Source: Candidatus Yanofskybacteria bacterium RIFCSPHIGHO2_01_FULL_41_21
GTDB lineage: Bacteria; Patescibacteriota; Minisyncoccia; 2-02-FULL-40-12; GWA2-44-9
Length of the DNA stretch: 44,341 nt
Assembly: GCA_001794025.1 (NCBI GenBank)
Contig: MGJA01000004.1
Span: 1 to 44,341 of the forward strand
Reading direction: 5' to 3'
In this document: in pieces, positions 676-40,971 of the stretch
How positions within the stretch are numbered: position 1 is the stretch's first letter
Layout: each line of letters starts with the position of its first letter
Made by a program: the position numbers and the translations under genes
Notes under the pieces: model-generated
Database searches by the model: none
What the model saw: the letters and a program-made list of their open reading frames with translations, nothing else
What the model was told of the DNA's origin: nothing

Positions 676-752
676 GAATTTTTAACTTCTTATGAAGTTT
701 TAACTTTGCACACGATGTGTTTTGCACAAAGTTAAAATTTCAAATGTACTAT
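676..752 (-). repeat. AT-rich hairpin expansion inside 23S rRNA
   Basis: TTTTAACTTTGTGCA...TGTGCAAAGTTAAAA inverted repeat between otherwise conserved 23S blocks. Confidence 0.7.
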
Positions 753-780
753 CCCTATTACCCCGCACACCCCGAACGCA

Positions 781-870
781 AGTTGTAAGTTTATAAAGTT
801 TGTAAAGTTATAAAGTTTTTTGAATTCTACTTTATGAACTTGATGAACTTTTTACTTTCAGCTTGTGTAC
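781..870 (-). repeat. Family I element copy 1: AT-rich micro-repeat hairpin inserted in 23S rRNA
   Basis: AGTAAAAAGTTCATCAAGTTCATAAAGT...ACTTTATAACTTTACAAACTTTATAAACTT; closely resembles intergenic 39908-39992. Confidence 0.75.
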
Positions 871-39418: not shown

Positions 39419-39907
39419 CTATTTCAAAAGTTCTTTAACCATCGCACTCACTCGCTGTCCATCGGCAGTACCTTTAATTTCTTCTTTGACAGCACTCATC
39501 ACTTTACCCATATCTTTGACGGAAGTGGCGCCAGACGAAGAAATCGCTTTTTGAACTAAAGCCCGAAGCGCATCATCAGACATCTGTTCCGGTAGGTAAG
39601 CCATGAGAGCTTCGGCTTCGGCGCGTTCGGATTCAGCTAATTCAGGGCGACCGCCTTTTTCAAATTCAGATACTGAATCCCGACGACGCTTTACTTCGGA
39701 AGCCAAAACATCCATGGTCTCTTGTTCGTCTAATTGGCTCTCCGCTTCAAGTTGGACCGGGTCGGTAATCGTCTTAATTAATTTGCCACGCTTTTCAAGT
39801 TCTTTATTTTTGATTGAAGCCATAACCATACCCAAAAGAGTACGCTTAGCACTATCGCCCGATTTTAGGGCATTTTTCATATCTTCTTTTAATTTATCTT
39901 TAAGCAC
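39419..39907 (-). CDS. GatB/YqeY domain-containing protein
   Basis: LKDKLKEDMKNALKSGDSAKRTLLGMVMASIKNKE, YLPEQMSDDALRALV, MGKVMSAVKEE. Confidence 0.93.
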   Translation of the reverse strand: MLKDKLKEDMKNALKSGDSAKRTLLGMVMASIKNKELEKRGKLIKTITDPVQLEAESQLDEQETMDVLASEVKRRRDSVSEFEKGGRPELAESERAEAEALMAYLPEQMSDDALRALVQKAISSSGATSVKDMGKVMSAVKEEIKGTADGQRVSAMVKELLK

Positions 39908-39992
39908 GATAGTTGAAAGTTAATAAAGTTCTTAATGTTTATAAAGTTTCCTGACTGACTTTATGAACTTTTTACTTTACGAACTTGATGAA
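39908..39992 (-). repeat. Family I element copy 2 (intergenic)
   Basis: TTCATCAAGTTCGTAAAGTAAAAAGTTCATAAAGT...AAACTTTATAAACATTAAGAACTTTATTAACTTTC; resembles the 23S insertion. Confidence 0.75.
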
Positions 39993-40265
39993 TTACAGGT
40001 CTATTTCTTGTTTGAGTTTACGTTTAGCCTCATCAAAAACATCTTTGTCGTAAGTACCAAGCTTTTCCAGTTTACGTCGAAGGCCGGCTAAGTGAATGCC
40101 CATGATGGCGGCGTTCTTTTCTCGGCGTTCGGTTTGTTTTTTAATTCTGAATTTAGATTTTTTTGCTTTCAACAAAACACCGCTCTGCTGAACAAAGCGA
40201 TTAAATCGGCGCATCAAACTGCCGATGGATTCATTTGGTTTTCTTTTTACTTCTACCATATTCAA
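39993..40265 (-). CDS. rpsU: 30S ribosomal protein S21 (long form)
   Basis: VKRKPNESIGSLMRRFNRFVQQSGVLLKAKK; SD AAGGAGG. Confidence 0.92.
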   Translation of the reverse strand: MNMVEVKRKPNESIGSLMRRFNRFVQQSGVLLKAKKSKFRIKKQTERREKNAAIMGIHLAGLRRKLEKLGTYDKDVFDEAKRKLKQEIDL

Positions 40266-40271
40266 CCTCCT

Positions 40272-40643
40272 TTTCGAATTTTACCTGCGAGTGAAACGAG
40301 TAGATGTAAAATTCAGAACCCCCTCACTCAACAGCAATAATTACATAATACTACATTTTAACCTTCGTTTCAAGCTGATGAAGGCCTTGGCTCGACGTTT
40401 AATTTGACGTTCTCTATCTCTCGCATCATTCTCTGATTTATACGCCTCATAATATACCAGTTCCAAAGGCCTTCTATCAGCAGTTGAAACTACGTGTCCT
40501 TTGTTGTGCTCCATAAATCTTTTCTTCAAATCACTCGAGTATCCAAAATATAAATTATTATCTTTCTTAGAACGTAAAACGTAGAAATAATGCATGAGTG
40601 AGGGGGTCAAGTATAGCAACCAATCGCTTTGCTCTTGGGCTCT
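40272..40643 (-). mobile_element. Family B element copy 8, occupied: GIY-YIG ORF in the central loop
   Basis: GCCCAAGAGCAAAGCGATTGG; CCCCCTCACTC-ATG...ORF...GAGTGAGGGGG; GAATTTTAC...GTAAAATTC. Confidence 0.82.
40341..40595 (-). CDS. GIY-YIG nuclease superfamily protein
   Basis: MHYFYVLRSKKDNNLYFGYSSDLKKRFMEHNKG; homologous to 32122-32400. Confidence 0.92.
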   Translation of the reverse strand: MHYFYVLRSKKDNNLYFGYSSDLKKRFMEHNKGHVVSTADRRPLELVYYEAYKSENDARDRERQIKRRAKAFISLKRRLKCSIM

Positions 40644-40971
40644 ACTTGAGATTTTTGCCTCCGAGGAGATGGATGTGGAGATGAGGAACAAGCTTCCCGC
40701 CATGTTCACCCTCATTTACAACCAAACGATACCCTTTATCAAGATTCTGCTTTTTCGCCATATCGTGAGCGACCCGAAACAATTTGCCCAATAGAGCTTC
40801 ATCATGTTCAGCGACATCATCAAGACCTGTAAAATGTTTGACGGGAATAATTAAAAAATGAACCGGTGCTTGAGGCGCGATATCCTTAATAACCCAAACA
40901 TGATCATCTTGATAAACCACTTCCGCCGGTATTTCACCATTAATAATTTTACAAAAAATATCTGTAATCAT
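40642..40971 (-). CDS. HIT family protein (HinT-like)
   Basis: IFCKIINGEIPAEVVYQDD, HGGKLVPHLHIHLLGG. Confidence 0.96.
   Translation of the reverse strand: MITDIFCKIINGEIPAEVVYQDDHVWVIKDIAPQAPVHFLIIPVKHFTGLDDVAEHDEALLGKLFRVAHDMAKKQNLDKGYRLVVNEGEHGGKLVPHLHIHLLGGKNLK

Follow-up and report, generated by a model that had tools for sequence, protein, structure and literature searches.

A palindromic repeat shared by a 23S rRNA insert and an operon spacer in a Candidatus Yanofskybacteria genome suggests one source of bacterial rRNA intervening sequences

The window analyzed here, a stretch of 44,341 nucleotides, is contig 4 (C4) of a 704-kb Candidatus Yanofskybacteria genome (G000). At its start lies the 5' part of a 23S rRNA gene, on the minus strand at positions 1 to 1144, which is truncated at the contig end and matches RF02541 over model positions 1 to 943 with a score of 654.6 bits. 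A long near-perfect inverted repeat (CCCTCACACCTAGTCAGCGA...TCGCTGACTAGGTGTGAGGG) occupies approximately positions 1332 to 1393, in the spacer that precedes the 23S gene at its 5' end, and is perhaps an rRNA processing stem. Toward the other end of the window, also on the minus strand, rpsU (ribosomal protein S21; 39993 to 40265) is followed by yqeY (GatB/YqeY-like; 39419 to 39907), a 162-amino-acid open reading frame. Both gene names are those of the original prediction, and the rpsU assignment is accompanied by a gene order that is conserved in two related loci (L049 and L050). The YqeY product is 79% and 71% identical to those of Candidatus Yanofskybacteria relatives, the closest named relatives by this protein, which places the genome in the Patescibacteria (candidate phyla radiation). 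Just upstream of rpsU is a small GIY-YIG nuclease-like gene (40341 to 40715, minus strand), and the genome as a whole has 10 GIY-YIG matches.

The 5' part of the 23S gene had been estimated to be about 200 nt longer than its Escherichia coli equivalent. The measurement agrees, as the two conserved blocks chosen for that estimate are 261 nt apart in the window genome versus 68 nt in E. coli rrlB, a difference of +193. In relatives of the same family, the same interval is mostly 156 to 176 nt, and in some it is longer, so that only about 85 nt, equal to the insert at positions 781 to 868, are peculiar to the window genome. The coordinates that had been given were correct, and the letters quoted with them are those of the minus strand. 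Two AT-rich insertions had been proposed, and one of them stood. The other, a hairpin at 676 to 745 (minus strand, H18 region), was found in six members of the genus and family (G002, G003, G005, G006, G009, and G010), and compensatory double changes are seen in 10 of the 19 consensus pairs. It is unrelated to the repeat described below and was ruled out as an insert; on this covariation, it is an ordinary, inherited rRNA helix. The possibility raised at the outset, of a lineage-wide expansion segment with no relatives outside rRNA, thus describes the hairpin at 676 to 745 and fails for the insert at 781 to 868, most of whose relatives lie outside rRNA.

The insert (781 to 868, minus strand; the repeat copy is placed at 780 to 868) lies in the H16 region, within the tip of a variable 23S hairpin (E. 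coli positions ∼271 to 287). The 23S genes of two members of the same genus (G002 and G003) and of G005 lack it and carry a hairpin of about 36 nt in its place. The insert is predicted to fold as a hairpin, with a z score of −3.9 when the flanks are included and −2.3 alone. It is about 88 nt in length, and no group I or group II intron family reached its gathering score within the window. In other genomes, the insert is 89% identical to a copy beside the 3' end of the 16S gene in G023, and 86% and 81% identical to copies in helix 45 of the 23S genes of G029 and G017, respectively. The proposed similarity to the yqeY/rpsU spacer was borne out by a BLAST search of the window genome, in which the insert and the spacer at 39910 to 39992 aligned with an E value of 7.7e-7 and 72% identity over query positions 18 to 95. 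The motif AAGTTNNTAAAGT, with one mismatch permitted, has nine matches in the window, every one of them within the insert or the spacer, against an expectation of 1.55; nine matches were reached in 0 of 100 shuffles.

The second copy (39910 to 39992, minus strand), also from the own-genome search, fills the spacer between rpsU and yqeY from the TAA stop codon to 2 nt short of the GTG start, and the junction reads TAA, then the 83-nt element, then TC and GTG. The same junction in Candidatus Yanofskybacteria palsa_1334 (L050) reads TAA-ACCAG-ATG, a spacer of 5 bp. In another Yanofskybacteria genome (L049, ∼2380 to 2490), the spacer contains a different, GC-rich hairpin (ACCCGCC...GGCGGGT), and the junction therefore seems to attract or tolerate hairpins. 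The own-genome matches lie at C4:775-875, C4:39911-39978, and C3:141812-141903, the last being a third copy located right at a stop codon. There, the element comes after a TAG in the window genome, whereas in the congeners G001 and G003 a TAA runs straight into the downstream flank. No copies were found at an E value of ≤1e-3 in three genomes of the same genus. Since comparable congeners or relatives lack the element at all three sites, the three copies look recently gained, after the split from the congeners; on parsimony, which is not proof, these changes within the genus would be gains rather than losses. A target-site duplication was not established at these sites, where the presence/absence pairs are too diverged and the helix tips differ by more than a clean insertion.

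The element has the consensus TAGTTAAAAGTTCATCAAGTTCATAAAGTT - loop - AACTTTATAACTTTANAAACTTTATAAACT and is an AT-rich palindrome of about 70 to 110 bp. Its arms consist of degenerate tandem units of 8 to 9 nt, AAGTTCATA in one arm and the complement in the other, and the ends often read TAG...CTA. Single copies are predicted to fold as AT-rich stems. RNAalifold returned no consensus pair on the alignment of copies, a result probably due to register slips in the short units, which would blur the alignment columns. Within the order, the element occurs in 18 of 45 genomes. G040 has the most hits (31), followed by G020 (22) and G017 (18), counts in which some places are included on both strands; for about 74 of the copies in relatives, the surrounding sequence was retrieved. 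With a sequence model derived from 31 copies, the family was detected in 49 of 380 genomes sampled throughout the phylum, mostly from other classes, in which E values went down to ∼1e-14 to 1e-16. The family is patchy across the phylum. In G040, near-identical copies of about 85 to 90 nt stand at successive junctions of an apparent ribosomal-protein operon. The proposal that the rRNA insert and the operon spacer are directly linked therefore holds in a more general form: both are copies of one dispersed palindromic family, of which other genomes also have both kinds of copy.

Other palindromes built from different short tandem units (CTAGAAC, AACAAGCT, TAAATCC, ATTAGTA, and ATTTAAAT) were seen in intergenic spacers of related genomes (L199 and L200 in G029, L204 in G023, L188 in G017, L217 in G044, and L214 in G007), and the AAGTT family is thus one of several of such build. 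An origin from phages or plasmids was rejected, because the spacer copy had no blastn match in a phage collection and the consensus had no match in plasmids. A 22-nt pattern was matched in 11 viral contigs, mostly as single-arm runs. One of these contigs (L298, IMGVR_UViG_3300050821_024091) carries an apparently full palindromic copy at ∼9286, a possible route of spread.

Copies within 23S rRNA genes were found in ten genomes: the window genome, five others of the same order (G015, G016, G017, G029, and G040), and four of other classes (G187, G292, G303, and G331). The 23S stretch is identical in G015 and G016, and the two are counted once. With the flanks mapped on E. coli rrlB, the copies fall at six sites, to which we assigned helix numbers following the standard E. 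coli map: ∼145/178 (helix 9/10; G015 and G016), ∼286 (helix 16 region; the window genome), ∼505 to 558 (helix 25; G187 and G331), ∼1160 to 1172 (helix 45; G017, G029, and G040), ∼1721 to 1733 (helix 63; G292), and ∼1867 to 1889 (helix 68; G303). The copy in G023 lies just past the 3' end of the 16S gene. An assembly error is conceivable for any one genome, with its rRNA on a draft-genome contig, but hardly for ten genomes with 23S copies. An rRNA-specific subfamily was considered and rejected. The rRNA copies are closer to one another than random copies are, but those of other classes are also closer than average to non-rRNA copies, and part of the likeness is therefore nearness to the consensus; the tight group of rRNA copies comprises only those of G000, G017, and G023. 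In the 23S genes of relatives, the block between GTAGCGGCGAGCGAA and GGGTGACAGTCCCGT was also seen to contain inserts that resemble palindromes made of other units, such as TAGGATTTAGGATTT (L023 in G017, L037 in G021, and L039 in G020). G016 has two different 23S genes (L229 on G016:C4 and L230 on G016:C7), one of which is identical letter for letter to that of G015 (L228 on G015:C27) over the block compared; binning contamination or a second operon are possible explanations. GC-rich mini-hairpins similar to GTTTGCGAAGCAAAC flank the rRNA copies, and a small hairpin of this kind is often found between the element and an ATG start (L158 to L162 and L171 in G040; L197 in G030).

Most copies lie between genes, and only 5 of 76 overlap a long open reading frame. 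Copies also adjoin tRNA genes (L262 and L268), and one stands right behind a tmRNA gene (L263). In relatives, element-bearing junctions are co-directional in 57 of 66 cases, which is no more than among control junctions (126 of 151), and enrichment at co-directional junctions was accordingly rejected. For the 57 co-directional copies, the distance from the stop codon has a median of −2 nt and that to the start codon a median of +5 nt, and 30 of the 57 have ≤15 nt on both sides; genes were called simply as the longest open reading frames, and these distances carry some error. Of 41 upstream stop codons, 32 adjoin or overlap the element. The idea that the element as a rule supplies a TAG stop was rejected, as stop codon usage does not differ from that in the control (P = 0.58). 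A Shine-Dalgarno motif followed the element at 0 of 53 starts, versus 23 of 188 controls.

Drawing on the copies themselves, their presence and absence within the genus, their sites, and the predicted hairpin, we consider it highly probable that the insert at 781 to 868 is a copy of a dispersed, noncoding, palindromic Patescibacteria DNA element of about 70 to 110 bp that is gained sporadically and kept where an RNA hairpin is harmless. Alternatively, the insert could have evolved in place as a lineage-specific rRNA expansion segment that resembles the spacer through AT-rich convergence. Within the family, the helix tip is indeed constant neither in length nor in sequence, and some viral contigs contain isolated AT-rich runs of AAAGTT units. 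However, the congeners lack the insert, it is 80 to 89% identical to non-orthologous copies in other genera, and neither the model hits in other classes nor a motif count that shuffles never reached are expected from convergence, and we regard this explanation as highly improbable. Independent local origins, in which short tandem units undergo slippage and template switching (quasi-palindrome correction), would fit the build of the arms, the many palindromes with other units (CTAGAAC, AACAAGCT, TAAATCC, and ATTAGTA) in the spacers and apparently also the 23S genes of the same genomes, and the lack of a mobilizing enzyme among the families searched. Such an origin is nonetheless improbable in our judgment, given that the near-identical operon copies in G040 and the recurrence of the same unit sequence across the phylum call for copying, although local processes may still shape arm length.

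Selection for a function, as an RNase III processing site, a re-initiation hairpin in translation, or a 3'-end stabilizer, could also have spread the element, which would then not be selfish. The snug fit between stop and start, the missing Shine-Dalgarno motifs, and the near universality of RNase III speak for it. The element is patchy, absent from all congeners, and found at non-orthologous sites, and neither the direction of the junctions nor the stop codons at them depart from the ordinary; we consider a selected function unlikely, with a small but real chance of being correct. The element is also palindromic, short, and intergenic, as expected if it were of the REP type and owed its mobility to a Y1 (RAYT-like) transposase, and Y1 genes occur in 13 of the 18 carriers, with a rank correlation with copy number of 0.28 (P = 0.06). 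Yet no Y1 gene was found in the window genome, in the two richest carriers (G040 and G020), or in two further carriers (G037 and G044), and eleven genomes have Y1 but no copies, so that mobilization by Y1 appears very improbable. The three other enzyme families covered fared no better. Reverse transcriptase (RVT_1) is missing from six carriers (G020, G015, G016, G023, G037, and G044), the IS630-type transposase DDE_3 is absent in 44 of the 45 genomes of the order, and GIY-YIG is found in all genomes, with no relation to copy number. None of the four families was consistently associated with the element.

We therefore return to a dispersed palindrome, which we read as MITE-like and as surviving where its hairpin does no harm. 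The element would be gained sporadically by movement at the DNA level, with an enzyme acting in trans, and in the window genome it would have settled in three places: a variable 23S hairpin, at its tip; the junction of rpsU and yqeY; and a further stop codon. The niches in which it would persist are variable 23S helix tips, the neighborhood of tRNA and tmRNA genes, and tight stop-to-start gaps. Tolerance in these places may come about because the hairpin keeps its own two ends adjacent. With the ends close in space, the rRNA fold and the stop-start distance would hardly be disturbed, and one property could thus explain both niches. A gene for RNase III is present in 44 of the 45 genomes of the order, including the window genome, and the enzyme could plausibly act on an AT-rich stem with about 30 pairs, so that fragmentation of the 23S rRNA is likely. 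Cleavage of the stem by RNase III would probably give a fragmented 23S rRNA, as with classical intervening sequences, and processed mRNAs. A broader proposal is that the Patescibacteria have a phylum-wide mobile hairpin that acts as a general source of short 23S intervening sequences, its ends-together geometry being near-neutral at helix tips and in stop-start gaps, and that one class of element colonizes both ribosomes and operons, possibly by way of new machinery. We offer this broader proposal tentatively, as a possibility that falls somewhat short of probable.

Intervening sequences in 23S rRNA, known from Salmonella, Yersinia, Coxiella, and Alphaproteobacteria, are sporadic hairpin inserts that take the place of a small loop, commonly in helices 9, 25, and 45; their origin is described as unclear, with remnants of transposition as one hypothesis (PMC4990558). 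The insert in the window resembles them as an inverted-repeat hairpin that lies within 23S rRNA, at a variable helix tip, and is absent in close relatives. The 23S copies of the element likewise occur at helices 9/10, 25, and 45; unlike the classical cases, they are also found at helices 16, 63, and 68. In the literature searched, there was no report of an intervening sequence traced to a dispersed intergenic repeat. A survey of rRNA in the candidate phyla radiation (CPR) described short (<200 bp), uncharacterized 23S inserts that have neither an open reading frame nor an intron, many of them at known intervening sequence sites, and suggested that some are intervening sequences (Tsurumaki et al. 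2024; PMC11270868). The present insert is of the same group, yet at about 88 nt alone it is shorter than the 100-nt cutoff of that survey (PMC11270868). The survey did not link the inserts to repeats elsewhere in the genome, and the words "hairpin," "repeat," and "intergenic" are absent from its text (PMC11270868). Such a link was likewise not found in the literature searched, a body in which subscription papers are mostly not included, and an earlier report is possible. The link between 23S inserts and a dispersed intergenic repeat bears on the origin of intervening sequences. A repeat shared between spacers and several rRNA helices suggests one source of bacterial rRNA intervening sequences. 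The occurrence of one family both at the classical helices and as dispersed intergenic repeats makes the hypothesis of transposition remnants testable by sequence. The family may also explain some of the many short CPR rRNA inserts (PMC11270868), which matter for rRNA-based surveys and for how reduced ribosomes are built.

Among mobile elements, REP/RAYT systems differ from the present family in that the window genome, G020, and G040 lack Y1, and membership in that class fails. The element shares with miniature elements such as Correia/NEMIS and ERIC a short, noncoding sequence with terminal inverted repeats and many dispersed copies near genes (many in relatives and three in the window genome). 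It differs from them in arms made of 8- to 9-nt tandem units, and neither a target duplication nor a parent transposon was seen, the search for the latter covering IS630-type DDE_3. In Correia transcripts, the terminal repeats are sites of RNase III cleavage (PMC10969869). The word rRNA is absent from the MITE reviews that were searched. Rickettsia palindromic elements are selfish short palindromic repeats, some of which lie inside RNA genes, those for tmRNA and M1 RNA (PMC2229807). The present element likewise has some copies within RNA genes; the Rickettsia elements often lie in frame in protein genes, whereas the present element lies mostly between genes. By these analogies, the element would behave as MITEs or Rickettsia palindromic elements do, and the copies in rRNA have the appearance of intervening sequences.
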